A DNA stretch of 64,000 nucleotides from an uncultured Mycobacteriaceae bacterium (GTDB lineage Bacteria > Actinomycetota > Actinomycetes > Mycobacteriales > Mycobacteriaceae): positions 1 through 64,000 of the forward strand of contig CADEGF010000014.1 in assembly GCA_902826815.1 (NCBI GenBank), written 5' to 3'. The translations under genes were made by a program, and so were the position numbers. Below are positions 22,283 to 51,198 of this stretch, in pieces (the first letter of the stretch is position 1; every line of letters begins with the position of its first letter). The notes beneath the pieces were generated by a model, which was not told the origin of the DNA, did not search any database, and saw only the letters and a list, made by a program, of their open reading frames with translations.

Positions 22283-23283
22283 GCTGATGCGAGCACGCTC
22301 CCTTCCTCCAGGAGGGGATGGTGGCATTCGGCGCCGTGGCCGACGACCTCGAGATCGAGTGCGTTCGGCGGCGCGGTCGTCGCACAGACGTCGGTGGCTT
22401 TCCAGCAGCGGGTCCGGAACCGGCAACCCGACGGCGGGTTGAGCGGTGACGGCACCTCGCCCTTGAGCAGGATCCGCTCGCGGCGTTGTTCGCTGTCCAG
22501 CGTCGGCGCGGCGGACATCAAGGCGGCGGTGTACGGATGGTTGGGCCGCTCGAAAACCGCTTCGGTTGGCCCGGATTCGATGATCCGGCCGAGGTACATC
22601 ACCGCGACCCTGTCCGCGACGTGCCGAACCACCGACAGATCGTGGGAGATGAACACATACGAGATCTGCAGCTGCTGCTGAAGGTCGTTGAGCAGGTTGA
22701 GCACCTGCGCCTGCACGGACAGGTCGAGCGCGGAGACCGGCTCGTCGCAGATGATCACGTCGGGGTCGAGCGCCAGCGCGCGGGCGATGCCGATGCGCTG
22801 CCGCTGCCCGCCGGAGAACTCCTGCGGGTACTTGTCGGCCGCCTTGGCGCCGAGGCCGACGAGGTCGAGCAGGCCGCGCACCCGCATATCGCGCTCGCGC
22901 TTGTTCTTGTACATGCCTTTGTGGCTGCGCCACGGCTCGGCGATGATGTCGCCCGCGGGCATCCGCGCGTTCAGCGAGGCGTACGGGTCCTGGAAGACCA
23001 TCTGCACGCGGCGGCGGAACTTCAGCAGGTCCTTACCGCGCAGGCTGAACGGGTCGATGCCGTCGAAGCGCACGGTGCCGGAATCGGGCCGCTCCAGCAT
23101 CATCAGAGTCCTTGCCAGCGTAGACTTTCCGCAGCCGGACTCGCCGACAAGGCCAAGGGTCCGGCCGCGCGGCAGGTCAAGGTTGATGCCGTCGAGCGCC
23201 TGCAGTCGCTTCTTGCCTGCATTCGGCACGCTGAAGGACTTGCGCAGGTCGCGGACCTCGAGCAGGTTCTCTTGCTCAGACAT
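22279..23283 (-). CDS. OppF/DppF-type ABC transporter ATPase
   Basis: 334 residues from the ATG at 23283, whose first eight bases overlap the end of the upstream ATPase gene. It has Walker A GESGCGKST, the signature FSGGQRQRIGIARAL, Walker B VIICDEP and the H-loop. The C-terminal oligopeptide-ABC region holds the Cys cluster CRFRTRCWKATDVC that can bind an iron-sulfur cluster or metal. It pairs with the upstream ATPase to power the permeases. Confidence 0.93.
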   Translation of the reverse strand: MSEQENLLEVRDLRKSFSVPNAGKKRLQALDGINLDLPRGRTLGLVGESGCGKSTLARTLMMLERPDSGTVRFDGIDPFSLRGKDLLKFRRRVQMVFQDPYASLNARMPAGDIIAEPWRSHKGMYKNKRERDMRVRGLLDLVGLGAKAADKYPQEFSGGQRQRIGIARALALDPDVIICDEPVSALDLSVQAQVLNLLNDLQQQLQISYVFISHDLSVVRHVADRVAVMYLGRIIESGPTEAVFERPNHPYTAALMSAAPTLDSEQRRERILLKGEVPSPLNPPSGCRFRTRCWKATDVCATTAPPNALDLEVVGHGAECHHPLLEEGSVLASA

Positions 23284-24322
23284 TTGTGACCTCTTCCGGG
23301 AAGTGGCATGCGGCTTCGCGGCGGCCGCCGGCGGTGCCGGCAATTGAGCCTTGTCCGGAGTCAACAGTGGGGCGTTTGGTGGCGCAGATGTCACGGGCCA
23401 GCGGACAGCGCTCCTGGTAGACGCAGCCTTCGGGGATCGCGTGCAGATCTGGCGGCGAGCCGCCGATCGACTTGAGCTCGTCGCCGCGGCGCGCGTGCAC
23501 GGGCACCGAGTTCAGCAGGCCTTTGGTGTAAGGGTGCTTCGGGTTGGCGAAAACCTCCGCCACTGGGCCGGTTTCGACGATGTTGCCCGCGTACATCACG
23601 GCGACGCGGTCAGCCTCCTCGGCGACCAGCGCCAGGTCGTGGGTGATCAGCACGAGCGCCATCTGGTACTCGGAGCGCAGGTCGCGCAGCAGCGCCATGA
23701 TCTGCGCCTGCACGGTGACGTCGAGAGCGGTGGTGGGCTCGTCGGCGATCAGCACGCTGGGGTTGAGCGCGACGGCCATCGCGATGAGCAGGCGTTGGCG
23801 CATGCCGCCGGAGAACTGGTGTGGATAGGAGTTCAGCCGCGTCTCGGGCTGCGGGATGCCGACGCGGGTCATCAGCTCGACCGACTTGGCCTTGGCTTCC
23901 TTGGCGCTCAGGTTGTGGTGAATCCGGAACGGTTCTGCCAGTTGGGTTCCCACGGTGTAGAGCGGGTTGAGCGCGGTGAGCGCATCTTGGAAAACGATCG
24001 CGAGATCGGTGCCCGCCATCTCCTGGCGCTTTCGGCGGCCGACGCTGAACAGGTCGATGCCGCTGAGCTTGGCGGTGCCGTCGATGACATCGGCGACGGG
24101 CTCGAGCAGCCCGACGAGTGCGGTGGCGGTCATCGACTTGCCGCAGCCGGATTCACCGAGCAGCGCCAGCGTTTCGCCGCGGCGGGCGGTGAAGCTCACG
24201 TCGTCGACGGCGCGCACCGTGCCGTTGATGGTGCGGATGTCGACAGTCAGGCCGTCGACGTCGAGCACCGGTTGGGTATCGGTCTGGCCGAGGCTTGGCT
24301 TGTGGTCAACTGCGGCAGTCAT
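23276..24322 (-). CDS. OppD/DppD-type ABC transporter ATPase
   Basis: 348 residues from the ATG at 24322, preceded by AAAGGGG. It has Walker A GESGCGKSM, the signature FSGGMRQRLLIAMAV, Walker B VLIADEPTTALD, and a C-terminal OppD extension with CVYQERCPLARDIC. The last residue of Walker A is Met rather than Thr/Ser, a common OppD variant. It forms a heterodimer with the downstream ATPase. Confidence 0.93.
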   Translation of the reverse strand: MTAAVDHKPSLGQTDTQPVLDVDGLTVDIRTINGTVRAVDDVSFTARRGETLALLGESGCGKSMTATALVGLLEPVADVIDGTAKLSGIDLFSVGRRKRQEMAGTDLAIVFQDALTALNPLYTVGTQLAEPFRIHHNLSAKEAKAKSVELMTRVGIPQPETRLNSYPHQFSGGMRQRLLIAMAVALNPSVLIADEPTTALDVTVQAQIMALLRDLRSEYQMALVLITHDLALVAEEADRVAVMYAGNIVETGPVAEVFANPKHPYTKGLLNSVPVHARRGDELKSIGGSPPDLHAIPEGCVYQERCPLARDICATKRPTVDSGQGSIAGTAGGRREAACHFPEEVTNV

Positions 24323-44221: not shown

Positions 44222-45799
44222 ATGGCCTCCCCGCAGGGCGATTCACGGCTGGGCACTCGATTCGGCCCGTATGAGCTGCAGTCGGTGATCGGTGTCGGCG
44301 GTATGGGCGAGGTGTACCGCGCGTACGACACGGTCAGGGAGCGCACGGTGGCCGTCAAACTGCTGCGCGCAGAGTTCGCCGCCGACAAGAGCTATCAAGA
44401 GCGGTTCCGTCGCGAGTCGCGGGTGGCGGCGCGGCTGCAGGAACCGCACGTCGTCCCGGTGCACGACTTCGGCGATATTGACGGCACGCTGTACATCGAC
44501 ATGCGCCTGGTCGAAGGCGCGAGTTTGAAGGATGAGCTGCGGGCCAACGGTCCGCTGGAGCCCAAGCGCGCAGCGTCGATCATCAAACAGGTCGGGGCGG
44601 CCCTTGACGCCGCGCACGCCGACAAGCTGATCCACCGCGACATCAAACCGGAGAACGTGCTGCTCACGCCGGACGACTTCGCGTATTTGGTGGACTTCGG
44701 GATAGCGCACGCAGGCGGCGATGCGAGCGTGACGTCGACGGGTCTGATCATCGGCTCGTGCGCGTACATGGCCGCGGAGAGGTTTGCGGGCGGTCAGGTC
44801 GGGCCTGCGGCAGATATCTACTCGCTGACGTGTCTGCTGTATGAATGCCTCACCGGCAGGGCGCCTTTCGAGACCGGCGGGGATTTGCGGCAGCTGATGA
44901 GCGCACACATGTTTTCGCCTCCGCCGCGGCCGAGCACGATGCGGCCGGGGATCACGCGGGCGTTCGACGACGTGATCGCGAAGGGAATGGCGAAGCGGCC
45001 GTCGGACAGGTATGCGACGGCGGGGGCGCTGGCGAAGGCGGCGTCGTCGGCGGCCGGTTCGGATCTGCCGCCGCGTCTGCCGCTTCCGCCGTTTCCGACG
45101 CCAAGCCCGGCGACGAACACCAGAGCGTTCTCCGCGGTCTACGAGAATCCGTCGGGGACGGGTTACACGCCGTACCCGCAGGCTGTGCATGCCATTGCGC
45201 CGCCTTCGCCGCCGAAGAAGCCGCGGTTCGGCCGGACCCAGGTGATGCTGGTGGCGGCCACGGTCGCGCTGTTCGGAGTGGCTGCGGTGCTGGCGTCGGT
45301 GCTGGCGCTCTCGGGTGGCGACTCGGAGACGACGCCTCGGTCACCGCTGGCCGCGCCGCCGCCGAGTACGACGACCGTGACCACCACCGCACCGTCACCG
45401 TCGGACGAGACCTCGACGACGACGCCGACGACGACGCCCACGTCATCGCCGACAGCGAGCGCGGCGCCGCTTGCAGGCATGACGGGGATGGACGGCCAGG
45501 GGTTCGTCGGGCACACGACGCGGTGCGATCCGGGCGCGCGCCCGGTGGCGGCGATCGAGACGTCGCAGTCGATGGCAGTGGTCTGCGAGACGTCGCCGGG
45601 GACCTATCAGTATCGAGGTGAGCGACTGCGCGACGGCGCGAACCTCCAGCTCGACAACGCGACGCAGGCCGGAGGCGGGTTCGACGTGACCAACCCGGAC
45701 GACGGCGCGCGATACGAGATCAGGCCCGATCGGCTGCGGATCCTCAGCAACGGCGGCGTCGACTCCGACGAGCCCGCGCTCCAATACGGGACGCGGTAG
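44222..45799 (+). CDS. Membrane Ser/Thr protein kinase with short extracellular domain
   Basis: 525 residues from the ATG at 44222. The kinase domain (15-275) is complete: GVGGMGEVY 24-32, Lys46, HRDIKPEN with Asp140, and DFG 158-160. A Pro-rich juxtamembrane stretch leads to a transmembrane helix (339-364), a Thr/Ser/Pro linker, and an outer domain of about 100 residues with two Cys (near 487 and 508). The outer domain is not a PASTA repeat. A typical Hanks-type sensor kinase of actinobacteria, similar to the PknF/PknJ group in layout. It is followed by a related kinase. Confidence 0.92.
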   Translation: MASPQGDSRLGTRFGPYELQSVIGVGGMGEVYRAYDTVRERTVAVKLLRAEFAADKSYQERFRRESRVAARLQEPHVVPVHDFGDIDGTLYIDMRLVEGASLKDELRANGPLEPKRAASIIKQVGAALDAAHADKLIHRDIKPENVLLTPDDFAYLVDFGIAHAGGDASVTSTGLIIGSCAYMAAERFAGGQVGPAADIYSLTCLLYECLTGRAPFETGGDLRQLMSAHMFSPPPRPSTMRPGITRAFDDVIAKGMAKRPSDRYATAGALAKAASSAAGSDLPPRLPLPPFPTPSPATNTRAFSAVYENPSGTGYTPYPQAVHAIAPPSPPKKPRFGRTQVMLVAATVALFGVAAVLASVLALSGGDSETTPRSPLAAPPPSTTTVTTTAPSPSDETSTTTPTTTPTSSPTASAAPLAGMTGMDGQGFVGHTTRCDPGARPVAAIETSQSMAVVCETSPGTYQYRGERLRDGANLQLDNATQAGGGFDVTNPDDGARYEIRPDRLRILSNGGVDSDEPALQYGTR

Positions 45800-45837
45800 C
45801 CGGTTTAGCGACTCGCGGAATCGCCAACACTCCGGCC

Positions 45838-45993
45838 ATGGAAGAGCGCACCGATCCGCCACTGAACCCGAAGGACGCCAGGGAGTCGACCGAGGAGCAG
45901 CGCGAACTCCAGCAGGAGTTCGATCATCAGGATGACGATCCGGATGCGCCGGGCGGCCATCAAACCCGAAAGCAGGTCGCCGACGAGACCTGA
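45838..45993 (+). CDS. Small acidic hydrophilic protein (51 aa)
   Basis: An ATG at 45838 opens a 51-residue frame that is highly charged: MEERTDPPLNPKDARESTEE, then a Glu/Gln-rich part, a DDDPDAP segment and a basic end. It lies alone in the 290-base space between two kinase genes on the same strand. It looks like a real disordered small protein rather than a random frame, but its ribosome-binding site is weak and the function is unknown. A kinase substrate is one speculative idea. Confidence 0.5.
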   Translation: MEERTDPPLNPKDARESTEEQRELQQEFDHQDDDPDAPGGHQTRKQVADET

Positions 45994-46087
45994 GCCCGTA
46001 TTGACGCACGCGCGGACAATCTCGGCAAACGTGGTGTAGCTTCAAGCGACACATCAGCGCGGCTACGCGTGCCGAGGAGTAAACGCG

Positions 46088-47905
46088 GTGGATGCGACAC
46101 CATTCGGGCAATATCAGCTCCAGGAGCTGATCGGCCGGGGCGGAATGGGCGAGGTCTACAGGGCCTTCGACACCCGGACCGACCGCATCGTCGCGCTCAA
46201 GCTACTGCCGACGCACCTCGCCAAGGACGGCGTCTTCCAGCAGCGTTTCCGGCGTGAATCTCAGGCCGCCGCGGGCATCAACGAACCGCACGTGGTGCCG
46301 ATCCACGGCTTCGGCGAGATCGACGAACGCCTCTACCTGGATATGCGGCTGATCGACGGCCGCAATCTCGGCGCCATGCTGGGCGAGGACGACGACAAGA
46401 AACCGCTGAAACCCGCTCTGGCCGTGACGATCATCGAGCAGGTCGCCGCCGCGCTGGACGCGGCGCACGAACTCGGCCTGATCCACCGCGACGTGAAGCC
46501 GTCGAACATCCTGGTCACCAAGAACGACTTCGCCTACCTGATCGACTTCGGGTTGGCCCGCACCGCAGGCCAACAAGGGCTGACGACGGCGGGCAGCACG
46601 CTCGGCACGATGGCCTATATGTCGCCCGAGCGGTTCGAGGGCGGCGAGATCGACCCGCGCTCCGACGTCTACGCGCTGACGTGCGTGCTCTACGAATGTC
46701 TGACGGCACAGAAGCCGTATCCCGTCGACAGCCTCGAACAGCAGATCGCCAAGCACATCAATGCGCCGGCGCCGAAACCGTCGGCGATCGATCCGAGGCT
46801 GGCGGCTTTCGACGAGGTCATCGCCAAGGGCATGGCCAAGAAGCCGGGCAGGCGCTATCAGTCGGCGGGCGAGATGGCCGCCGCCGCGCGCCGCGCGTCG
46901 GACGTCCCGGTACGCACGACGGGCCGCTCCGGGCGGCACTCCGCGGGCCGCGCCAAGCAGAGCCCGGGCCGAGGAGTGTCGTCGCGCACCTTGGCGATCC
47001 TGAGTGCCGCGGTGCTGCTTGGCGCGGCGATCGTGTTCGGCGCGTGGCACTTCTGGGGCGGAGGCGACGACAAAGAATCGGCTGGACCGCCCTCGACGTC
47101 GGCGCCACCAGGTCCCTCGGAGGATTCGAGCGGGCCCGTGCCCGCGATCGCGGCGACGCTGCCCCCCGAGATCAAGGAGTCGGGCCGACTGACGGTCGGC
47201 GTCAATGTGCCATACGCGCCAAACGAATTCAAGAACTCTGCGGGCGACATCGTCGGTTTCGACGTCGACCTCATCAACGCGGTCTCGAAAACACTTGGCC
47301 TGGTTCCCGAGTATCGCGAGTTCCTGTTCGAGGACATCATCCCGACGGTCCAGCGCGGCGAGATCAACGTCGGGATGTCGTCGTTCACCGACACGCTCGA
47401 GCGTCAGGAGCAGGTCGACTTCGTCACCTACTACGAGGCGGGCACGCTGTGGGCGCAGCGCGCAGGCTCGGACATCGACCCGAATGCGGCGTGCGGGTTG
47501 CGGATCGGGATGACGCCGGGCTCGACCCACGAAACCGTCGAGGTTCCGGCCAAGAGCGACCAATGCGTCGCGGCGGGTCTGCCGCCGGTAGAGGCGGTCG
47601 TGTACCCGCGCCAGGACGAACTCACCGCGGCGGTGATCAACGGCGAGATCGATGCGATGTCGGCCGATTCGCCCGTGACGGGTTTCGCGATCAAGGGCAG
47701 TAACGGCGCGCTCGTACCGGCGGGCGAGATCTTCGATACCGCGCCCTACGGCTGGCCGGTGCAGAAGGATTCGCCGCTCGCCGAATCGCTGCGGCAGGCG
47801 ATGGAGCATGTGATCTCGACCGGCGAGTACAAGGCCATCGCCACCAAATGGGGTGTGGAGAAAGGCATGATCGCCAAGCCGGTGATCAACGGCGCGGTCA
47901 ACTGA
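46088..47905 (+). CDS. Ser/Thr kinase fused to an extracellular solute-binding domain
   Basis: 605 residues from a GTG at 46088, preceded by GAGGAG. The cytoplasmic kinase (8-270) is complete: GRGGMGEVY 16-24, Lys38, HRDVKPSN with Asp135, DFG 153-155. One transmembrane helix lies at 301-322 and a Ser/Pro linker at 328-357. Residues 360-600 form a family 3 (amino-acid-type) solute-binding domain starting IKESGRLTVGVNVPYAP and including FKNSAGDIVGFDVDLINAVS and GVNVGMSSFTDT-like strands. The kinase thus appears to sense an outside nutrient directly through a tethered binding protein. No ABC permease is nearby. Confidence 0.92.
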   Translation: MDATPFGQYQLQELIGRGGMGEVYRAFDTRTDRIVALKLLPTHLAKDGVFQQRFRRESQAAAGINEPHVVPIHGFGEIDERLYLDMRLIDGRNLGAMLGEDDDKKPLKPALAVTIIEQVAAALDAAHELGLIHRDVKPSNILVTKNDFAYLIDFGLARTAGQQGLTTAGSTLGTMAYMSPERFEGGEIDPRSDVYALTCVLYECLTAQKPYPVDSLEQQIAKHINAPAPKPSAIDPRLAAFDEVIAKGMAKKPGRRYQSAGEMAAAARRASDVPVRTTGRSGRHSAGRAKQSPGRGVSSRTLAILSAAVLLGAAIVFGAWHFWGGGDDKESAGPPSTSAPPGPSEDSSGPVPAIAATLPPEIKESGRLTVGVNVPYAPNEFKNSAGDIVGFDVDLINAVSKTLGLVPEYREFLFEDIIPTVQRGEINVGMSSFTDTLERQEQVDFVTYYEAGTLWAQRAGSDIDPNAACGLRIGMTPGSTHETVEVPAKSDQCVAAGLPPVEAVVYPRQDELTAAVINGEIDAMSADSPVTGFAIKGSNGALVPAGEIFDTAPYGWPVQKDSPLAESLRQAMEHVISTGEYKAIATKWGVEKGMIAKPVINGAVN

Positions 47906-48268: not shown

Positions 48269-49543
48269 ATGAACGGCAGAGCGCGCAGGCTGCTGCAGTC
48301 GATCCGCAAGGAGATCCCCGAGGCGCTGCCGGAGGGGCAGGACCATGACGACGCGGAGATCGCCGCCATGCTGCGCGAGCTCGGCATCGCGCTGATCGAA
48401 TGCGAGCAGCCTGCGCAGCTGGTGCAGGCGCGGCTGCTCGCGATCGCCAAGCAGTACACCCACCACACGGTCCGCGTCGTGGTGCTGCCCACCGCGCTCG
48501 TCGTCCAGGTCGGCACCGTCGCCTACGAGGTCGAAACCGTCATCAACCCGACGACACAGCTGAACCTCGCGGGCCGGGTCGACGCAATCGCCGAGCTCGC
48601 CGAGGTCGGCGCCATCACCCCTGCCGACGCGGTCCGGGAGGCCGCCGCCGCCCGCATCATGAAGCCGCGGTTCGGTTCGGTCGTCACCGTGATCGGCTAC
48701 GTCATCACGACGCTCGGCTTCGGCATGGTGATCAACCCGACGTGGGCGTCGTTGTGGGGCTATGTGTTCCTCGGCTCGGTGGTGGGCGTGATCGTCATCC
48801 TGGGCCGGCCGTTCCCGACGCTGACCGCGGTGCTGCCGACGTTCGCGGCGATGGTCGTCACCGTGCTGGCGACGTGGTTCGTCGCCGACGCGGCCAACGA
48901 CGGTCTGTTGCGGGTGATCAGCCCGCCGTTGGTGGCGATCCTGCCGGGGCTGTCGCTGACGATCGCCGCGATGGAGTTGTCCAGCGCGCAGATCATCAGC
49001 GGCGCGAGCAGGCTCATTTACGGTGTGACACAACTGATGTTGCTCGTCTTCGGGGTCGGCATCGGCATCCACGTCGCGGGCCGGGTCGCTCCGCAGCCGC
49101 CGTCGCCGCAGATGGGCAGTTGGGCGCTGTACGTCGCCATCATTGTGATCGCGATTGGGCTGTACATCTATCTGTCGGCACCCACGGGATCGCTGGTGTG
49201 GCTGGCGCTGGCGGTCGGTGTCGCGTTGATCGGCCAGCAGGTCGGCGGCCTCTTCATGTCGCCGACGCACTCGGGTGCCGTCGGCGCGTTCCTGGTGGTG
49301 CCGTTCGCGATGCTCGGCGCGCGCATCAAGACGTCTCCACCTGCGATCGTGATGATGCTTGCGGCGTTCTGGGCGCTGGTGCCGGGCTCGCTGAGCTTCC
49401 AGTCGCTTGGTGAAGCCGTCCAAGGCGGCGGCAACGACATCGCGACGCTCGGCTCCAGCGTCGCAGCGATCTTCTCGATCGCGCTCGGCACCCTTGTCGG
49501 CTGGAGTGTCCTCGAGACGATCAGGACTCGGATAGGGCGCTGA
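48269..49543 (+). CDS. ThrE-type threonine/serine exporter family protein
   Basis: 424 residues. A soluble N-terminal domain (about 1-125) precedes ten hydrophobic segments that correspond to the fused ThrE (DUF1212) and ThrE_2 (DUF3815) parts. Conserved features include a PTTQLNLAGRVDAIAEL-like loop and the final LVPGSLSFQSLGEAV. The family exports threonine and serine in corynebacteria. Together with the symporter downstream it points to handling of small amino acids. Confidence 0.85.
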   Translation: MNGRARRLLQSIRKEIPEALPEGQDHDDAEIAAMLRELGIALIECEQPAQLVQARLLAIAKQYTHHTVRVVVLPTALVVQVGTVAYEVETVINPTTQLNLAGRVDAIAELAEVGAITPADAVREAAAARIMKPRFGSVVTVIGYVITTLGFGMVINPTWASLWGYVFLGSVVGVIVILGRPFPTLTAVLPTFAAMVVTVLATWFVADAANDGLLRVISPPLVAILPGLSLTIAAMELSSAQIISGASRLIYGVTQLMLLVFGVGIGIHVAGRVAPQPPSPQMGSWALYVAIIVIAIGLYIYLSAPTGSLVWLALAVGVALIGQQVGGLFMSPTHSGAVGAFLVVPFAMLGARIKTSPPAIVMMLAAFWALVPGSLSFQSLGEAVQGGGNDIATLGSSVAAIFSIALGTLVGWSVLETIRTRIGR

Positions 49544-49659: not shown

Positions 49660-51198
49660 TTGTCGGAATTCCTCGACACCGTCAACGGATACGTCTGGAG
49701 CAACGCACTCGTCTACCTGTGTCTGGCTGCAGGGGTGTACTTCTCGATCAGATCCCGATTCGTCCAGGTCCGACAAGTCCCGGAGATGATCCGGTTGATG
49801 CTCAAGGGAGAGAAATCCCCCTCGGGAGTGTCGTCGTTCCAGGCGCTGACGATGTCGCTGGCGGGTCGTGTCGGCACAGGCAACATCGCAGGTGTCGCCA
49901 CCGCCATCGCGTTCGGCGGTCCCGGCGCGCTGTTCTGGATGTGGGCGGTGGCGTTCCTTGGTGCGTCGACATCGTTCGTGGAGTGCACGCTGGGGCAGAT
50001 CTACAAGACCCGCGACCGGTTGACCGGCGAATACCGCGGCGGGCCCGCGTACTACCTCAGCCGCGCGTTCGCGCATACCCCCGCCGCGACGGCGTTCAAG
50101 GTGTACGGGTTCGTCTTCGCCGCGGTGACGGTGCTGGCGTGCGGGCTCCTGCTGCCCAGTGTCCAGTCGAATTCGATGGCGTCGGCGATGAGTTCGGCCT
50201 GGGGATGGGACAAGTGGTGGATCGCCGTGGGCTCCGTGATCGTGCTGGCGTTCGTCATCATCGGCGGCGTCAAGCGGATAGCGGCGTTCGCCTCGATCGT
50301 GGTGCCGTTCATGGCGGTGGTCTACATCGTGCTGGCGTTGGTGATCGTCGCCATGAATGCCAGCCTGGTGCCCGAGGTGCTGACGACGATCTTCGCCAGC
50401 GCCTTCGGGTTCGACTCGGCGTTCGGAGCGATCATCGGATCGGCCGTGATGTGGGGCGTCAAACGCGGCATCTATTCAAATGAAGCCGGGCAGGGCACCG
50501 GCCCCCATGCCGCGGCCGCCGCCGAGGTGTCGCATCCGGCGAAGCAGGGCCTTGTGCAGGCGTTCGCCGTCTATATCGACACGCTGTTCATCTGCTCGGC
50601 GACGGGATTCCTCATCTTGTCCACCGGTGCCTACCGAGTGTTCGAAGGCGAAAGCGAAGACGGCGCAGTCCTTTCCGAGGGTGGACTGCTGCCCGCGGAC
50701 GCGGAGGTCGGCCCGACGTTCGCGCAGACCGGCTTCGATACGCTGTGGGGCGGCGCCGGCGCATCCTTCATCGCGATTTCGCTGGCGTTCTTCTGCTTCA
50801 CCACGTTGATCGCCTACTACTACATGGCCGAGACGAATCTGCGATTCATGCTAGGCAAGTTCTCGACGACCTCGATGCCCGTGATCCGCGGCACCGTCGG
50901 ACAGAACCTCACTATGCTGCTGCAGGCGTTGATCCTGGTGTCAGTGGTGATCGGCGCGGTGTCCACGGCCACCGATGCCTGGGTGCTCGGCGACATCGGC
51001 GTGGGCCTGATGGCGTGGCTGAACATCGTCGGGATCATCATCCTGCAGCAGCCTGCGTACAAGGCGCTGTGGGACTTCGAGAAGCAGAAAAAGGCGGGCC
51101 TCGACCCAGTGTTCAACCCCATGGAACTCGACATCGTCGGCGCCACGTTCTGGGAGAACTACACCCGCGACCGGGAAGAGGAGCCGAGCCGGACGTGA
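49660..51198 (+). CDS. Alanine/glycine:cation symporter (AGCS family)
   Basis: 512 residues from a TTG at 49660 with a strong AGGAGG (49649-49654). It has about eleven transmembrane helices and the AGCS signatures GRVGTGNIAGVATAIAFGGP, GGPAYYLSRAF and SNEAGQGTGPHAAAAA. It imports alanine or glycine with Na+ or H+. An insertion with acidic residues (EGESEDGAVLSEGG) lies in one outer loop. Confidence 0.93.
   Translation: MSEFLDTVNGYVWSNALVYLCLAAGVYFSIRSRFVQVRQVPEMIRLMLKGEKSPSGVSSFQALTMSLAGRVGTGNIAGVATAIAFGGPGALFWMWAVAFLGASTSFVECTLGQIYKTRDRLTGEYRGGPAYYLSRAFAHTPAATAFKVYGFVFAAVTVLACGLLLPSVQSNSMASAMSSAWGWDKWWIAVGSVIVLAFVIIGGVKRIAAFASIVVPFMAVVYIVLALVIVAMNASLVPEVLTTIFASAFGFDSAFGAIIGSAVMWGVKRGIYSNEAGQGTGPHAAAAAEVSHPAKQGLVQAFAVYIDTLFICSATGFLILSTGAYRVFEGESEDGAVLSEGGLLPADAEVGPTFAQTGFDTLWGGAGASFIAISLAFFCFTTLIAYYYMAETNLRFMLGKFSTTSMPVIRGTVGQNLTMLLQALILVSVVIGAVSTATDAWVLGDIGVGLMAWLNIVGIIILQQPAYKALWDFEKQKKAGLDPVFNPMELDIVGATFWENYTRDREEEPSRT

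Follow-up and report, generated by a model that had tools for sequence, protein, structure and literature searches.

The abstract of the 2018 mBio paper on GlnH calls it an outstanding question which stimuli bacterial Ser/Thr kinases respond to. In the published GlnH-GlnX-PknG model, which draws on genetic and binding data, a solute-binding protein (SBP) steers a mycobacterial Ser/Thr kinase, and the mBio paper also names MSMEG_1200, or StpK7, as a fusion of a kinase with an SBP. Like GlnH-GlnX-PknG, StpK7 ties a family-3 SBP to a mycobacterial Ser/Thr kinase, and the anchor residues of the two binding domains correspond; unlike that system, in which the sensor, the membrane relay, and the kinase are three proteins, StpK7 is one. 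Reviews state that StpK7 phosphorylates MSMEG_1198 in M. smegmatis, that it represses a BREX-like island, and that phage TM4 requires it, and StpK7 serves as the comparison for a phage kinase in a 2025 mSystems paper. Since the kinase-SBP design has already been described, the architecture of the protein analyzed here is not new in kind, and the view of the initial annotation that it was unusual enough to be new falls away. What the analysis adds is the transporter relative of the sensor, the single clade that the sensors form, the operon-embedded forms of the gene, and the comparison of the binding pockets.

The StpK7-type kinase of the window and its neighbors

In the window (the whole 64,000-nucleotide stretch of DNA that was analyzed), an stpK7-type gene on the plus strand (46088..47905) starts with GTG at 46088 and runs for 605 stop-free codons. 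Its product scored 1053 bits over residues 1 to 604 with the NCBIfam model NF052427, "serine/threonine protein kinase StpK7" (MSMEG_1200), for which the curated cutoff is 900, and it shares domain order and length with that protein. In the explanation that we consider the best one and likely to be correct, the product serves this Mycobacterium species as its StpK7 receptor kinase.

The cytoplasmic Hanks-type kinase domain covers approximately residues 7 to 270 (46106..46897, plus strand; Pfam, NCBIfam, and motifs), with the best Pkinase stretch at residues 9 to 225 (E = 1.3e-42). Its catalytic set is complete: GRGGMGEV starts at residue 16, VALK contains the catalytic Lys (K38), HRDVKPSN contains the HRD Asp (D135), and DFG contains the last Asp (D153). 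A single transmembrane helix at approximately residues 301 to 323 (46988..47056, plus strand) is the only clear hydrophobic stretch by hydropathy; a basic stretch lies just before it, and the charges around the helix suggest that the kinase faces the inside of the cell. A Pro/Ser-rich linker (residues 324 to 358) leads to the predicted extracellular family-3 solute-binding domain at approximately residues 359 to 592 (47162..47863, plus strand), which carries the anchors Y376, F414, T434, R439, and D527 and matches SBP_bac_3 over residues 368 to 589 (E = 6.9e-28). A comparison of the outer domain with the PDB gave 87 distinct sequences at E ≤ 0.001. The reconstructed amino-acid-binding protein AncQR ranked first (E = 2e-27), and reconstructed and natural amino-acid-binding proteins headed the best 60 of these 87. 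This likeness to amino-acid-binding proteins, measured on sequence, is far above chance. The initial annotation was thus right that an intact kinase, one helix, and a full family-3 SBP domain share a single 605-residue chain (Pfam, motifs, and hydropathy agree) and that the outer domain aligns with solute-binding proteins.

PknB has a single-helix layout. StpK7 resembles PknB-type PASTA kinases in its kinase domain (293.7 bits with the PknB model, below the cutoff of 450) but differs in that its outer part is a solute-binding domain, and no PASTA family appeared in the Pfam scan. Elsewhere in the same genome, a GlnH-like SBP adjoins a PknG-like kinase (L236:1830-5083), which makes a second SBP-kinase couple.

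Upstream of stpK7 on the plus strand lies another Ser/Thr kinase gene (44222..45799; Pfam and NCBIfam), whose start codon is not fixed. It matched kinase-type families only, and its outer part (45101-45796) had no Pfam match, in keeping with the earlier statement that the adjacent kinase has a different outer domain. The tandem pair (44222-47905) is kept in Mycolicibacterium stellerae (L089/L192), in L091, and in L090, where the contig begins within the neighboring kinase and its outer part alone is seen. As had been claimed, a permease or an ATPase of the same kind as the sensor is missing from the surroundings: tblastn (E ≤ 1e-5) with the paralogous permease found nothing near StpK7 in the window, and the paralogous ATPase gave two weaker, ABC ATPase-like stretches at 22513-24223 on the minus strand (36% and 33%). 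With its SBP fused to a kinase and its own-kind permease and ATPase absent nearby, the protein does not qualify as the binding component of an ABC transporter.

The amino-acid transporters placed downstream by the initial annotation are present (ThrE, 48269-49543; AgcS symporter, 49660-51198), but they do not hold up as partners, since they adjoin the kinase in none of its three nearest relatives. In L089, 8.7 kb separate ThrE from the kinase; in the stretches of L090 and L091, the former of which stops 3 kb downstream, both genes were looked for and not found. Among 55 loci (one record being included twice), no cluster of open reading frames occurred near stpK7 in more than 21.

Distribution and origin of the sensor

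The initial annotation proposed a survey of how widely the fusion occurs. Matches above the NF052427 cutoff were found in 66 of 148 genomes of the genus, including the window's own; G040, in which stpK7 is split over two contigs, was scored as lacking StpK7 in this count and in the co-occurrence counts below. In a phylum sample of 396 genomes, with three candidates scored per genome, 5 exceeded the cutoff, and all of these belong to the same genus. The SBP profile matched more widely, in 217 of 301 genomes of the family and 23 of its 31 genera. Among the SBP rows listed from other genera, 5 had open frames of >450 residues, and a kinase fusion was found in none of the 5. A scan of named genomes with a single protein returned 32 loci, 4 of them with full-length StpK7. 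More distantly related fusions of a kinase with an SBP are said to occur in Streptomyces.

The window's genome also encodes a lipoprotein-type SBP (L039:4157-5143), its lipoprotein status being read from the signal sequence, that is 61% identical over 276 amino acids to the outer part of the kinase. It is followed in gene order by a permease, an ATPase, a histidine kinase (HK), and a LuxR-type regulator, and we take this locus to be the MSMEG_3235-type transporter. One paper's table lists MSMEG_3235 as the secreted component of an amino-acid ABC transporter. In the parts of the literature that were searched, no link between StpK7/MSMEG_1200 and this transporter (six tags from the range MSMEG_3234 to MSMEG_3240) was found.

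To place the sensors in a tree, 107 fused and 61 free SBP frames were used, 12 free frames at ≤200 bits were left out, and identical frames were merged to give 127 distinct sequences. All 75 kinase-borne sensors, one of them from a broken gene, formed one clade (SH-aLRT, 99). In a tree of a hand-picked 55-row subset, the 26 kinase rows likewise formed one clade (100/99, and 200 of 200 bootstrap trees, in a bootstrap that had not fully settled). Because the kinase-borne sensors form a single clade, the trees point to one capture of the sensor from the SBP lineage of an amino-acid-type ABC transporter.

In two genomes, this sensor type is also found on a second protein, attached to a clearly different kinase domain (L051:8202-10049 in G086 and L198:8138-9973 in G108), which scores 134 and 136 bits, versus 461 to 570 in the other fused frames; this suggests that the sensor and the kinase have recombined in the past. 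A second StpK7-like gene on C2 of G095 (L053:8159-9960) has its kinase and sensor in separate open frames and is a broken copy. In the SBP tree, the StpK7 proteins of G004, G018, G042, and G135 (L123, L170, L167, and L033) fall together with those of G065 and other genomes; in the tesB tree described below, these four genomes lie in a 12-row clade as its sole StpK7 carriers, a pattern that may reflect transfer.

Genomic ties between StpK7 and the transporter

The initial annotation saw no transporter link, a reading that is overturned by the paralogous transporter in the same genome and by five genomes in which the kinase lies inside the transporter row (SBP-permease-ATPase-HK-response regulator). 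In G083, G055, G012, and G418, the kinase gene is located between those for the ATPase and the HK on the same strand, and G040 has the identical gene order across a contig break. Of the 57 loci that carry a fused kinase and span 9 kb or more, 4 contained both the permease and the ATPase; in this set at least two pairs come from the same record, and G040 does not belong to it. Four of the five row-embedded genomes were sampled in the tesB tree, where together they form one clade (95). The window's genome has its kinase and its transporter on separate contigs.

In the raw table, the transporter SBP occurred in 62 of 66 genomes with StpK7 versus 13 of 82 without it (Fisher P = 1.5e-23), with G071, which has a 55% match, scored as lacking the transporter SBP. 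We mapped both genes on a tree of tesB from 100 of the 143 genomes that have this gene, including all odd combinations with tesB and a remainder chosen by hand. The kinase required 7 changes on this tree and the transporter required 5. The independent pairs numbered 4 and 6, respectively, and of these a mean of 1.2 and 1.8 had the other gene changing in the same direction and 0.0 had it changing in the opposite direction; the sign test gave median P values of 1 and 0.5, the pairs being too few to reach 0.05. Since there are too few independent changes on the tesB tree, we gave co-occurrence no weight as evidence of a partnership.

Two genomes, G106 and G121, retain StpK7. At their loci L240 and L241, tblastn located the two-component genes, next to which it found neither an SBP nor a permease nor an ATPase, and searches of the two genomes found neither the free SBP nor the permease. 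Given that these genomes keep StpK7 without the transporter, the kinase does not need it. We also considered the two-component pair as a specific partner of StpK7 and rejected it. The HK is present in 102 of 148 genomes of the genus, many of which lack the transporter, and tblastn with the HK over 18 kb around the transporter in 11 loci of other genera gave no match; an HK that often occurs without the transporter and has no match around it at these 11 loci is not specific to StpK7.

Binding pocket and candidate signaling mechanism

Residues 413, 476, and 507 are among the positions at which the kinase sensors depart from the transporter SBPs. Residue 476 presumably faces the ligand side chain, as judged from the numbering of LAO and GlnBP; residue 507 was placed as side chain facing from an alignment with a gap nearby, and residue 413 may be structural. 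These positions are D, Q, and D in all 36 transporter sequences of the genus, which belong to free lipoproteins serving a permease, and in 12 of 13 from other genera. In contrast, the whole set occurs in none of the 75 kinases, which have D413 in 0, Q476 in 5, and D507 in 1 case; the deep-branching L193 (A, Q, and D) is the only kinase with two of the three, and the window protein has L, T, and P. Overall, 26 positions carry a residue found in ≥90% of the transporters of the genus and <15% of the kinases, among them loop 476-478. Loop 476-480 is remodeled in the kinase sensors; at 478 to 480, the window protein shares G-S-T with its three nearest relatives, a motif that 4 of the 75 sensors have. 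Given the loss of the D/Q/D set and the remodeled loop, binding could be weakened or changed.

The residues that contact the ligand backbone behave differently. In GlnH, Ser164, Arg169, and Asp250 are reported to hold the amino and carboxyl groups of the ligand; from the alignment and from motif spacing on the GlnH of the same genome, their counterparts are T434, R439, and D527, so that the family-3 amino- and carboxyl-contact residues are present in the window sensor. Far from being lost in all relatives, a possibility that the initial annotation had raised, these anchors persist across the 75 kinase sensors (T434 in 74 and R439 and D527 in 75), and Y376 and F414 are invariant (75 of 75). GlnH is also reported to contact the Asp side chain through Arg147, Thr162, and Trp232, with Lys161 acting via water. 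Here the two proteins differ, since Arg147, Lys161, and Thr162 align to I417, S431, and S432 of StpK7 (a gap leaves the counterpart of Trp232 uncertain). With I/S/S at the positions that read the Asp side chain, sensing of Asp or Glu is not indicated. The anchors point to a real ligand, and the changed positions suggest that this ligand may not be that of the transporter.

We favor, as the likely reading, that StpK7 is a receptor kinase in which a captured flytrap senses an amino-acid-like solute and drives a ligand-dependent kinase switch. The outer Venus-flytrap pocket would close on the solute outside the membrane; this closure, relayed across the single helix as a change in dimerization or in juxtamembrane geometry, would switch the cytoplasmic kinase, which would in turn phosphorylate cytoplasmic regulators (MSMEG_1198 in M. 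smegmatis, according to reviews). We infer the class of ligand, ligand-driven switching, the direction of the switch, and dimerization. Judging by its residues, StpK7 is probably a sensor of an amino-acid-like ligand, which may by now differ from the ligand of the transporter. Of the earlier proposal that the kinase directly senses an outside nutrient or wall fragment, the idea of direct sensing holds up at the level of sequence, and a wall fragment as the ligand gains no support.

It is possible, if doubtful, that the outer domain reads exactly the solute of the paralogous transporter, such that kinase and transporter share one ligand. The 61% identity of the two sensors, the embedding of the kinase in the transporter row in five genomes, and the identical backbone anchors would fit this arrangement, but the D413/Q476/D507 set of the transporters is not found together in any kinase, even if L193 keeps two of the three, and G106 and G121 have the kinase without the transporter. 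We regard it as quite improbable that the outer domain has lost ligand binding altogether and serves as a docking or structural module, e.g., one touching a permease or an envelope component. The 26 positions conserved in transporters and rare in kinases, loop 476-478 included, would be expected of such a module; the retention of Y376, F414, T434, R439, and D527 is hard to explain without a ligand, given that the sensors compared are 62 to 70% identical to that of the window.

That StpK7 responds mainly to phage infection or envelope damage, and not to a nutrient, seems very improbable to us, even though the published role of StpK7, as reviews give it, concerns phage infection and not nutrition, which counts against a nutrient receptor. 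Beyond the TM4 requirement and the repressed BREX-like island, PADLOC models for the PD-T4-6 kinase match both window kinases strongly (best E = 7.2e-118, for StpK7). However, these matches are for the most part confined to the kinase domain, so that defense kinases and other kinases cannot be told apart by them; among the nine window proteins scanned, PADLOC found no BREX part and no match in the remaining seven, and the outer domain has, by its sequence, an amino-acid-binding fold. A broader scenario, speculative and rather unlikely, is that StpK7 was born in an amino-acid ABC operon by duplication of the SBP and was retuned to a different small amino-acid-like signal, in which case extracellular nutrient or envelope chemistry would set the antiphage state via the kinase.

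Under the receptor kinase reading that we favor, StpK7 offers a sensor whose relative in a transporter can be traced and whose conserved and altered positions are defined, which opens the way to a ligand search by comparing the two purified domains. Since gating of TM4 infection has been reported for StpK7, the ligand would link chemistry outside the cell to phage susceptibility in a laboratory mycobacterium.
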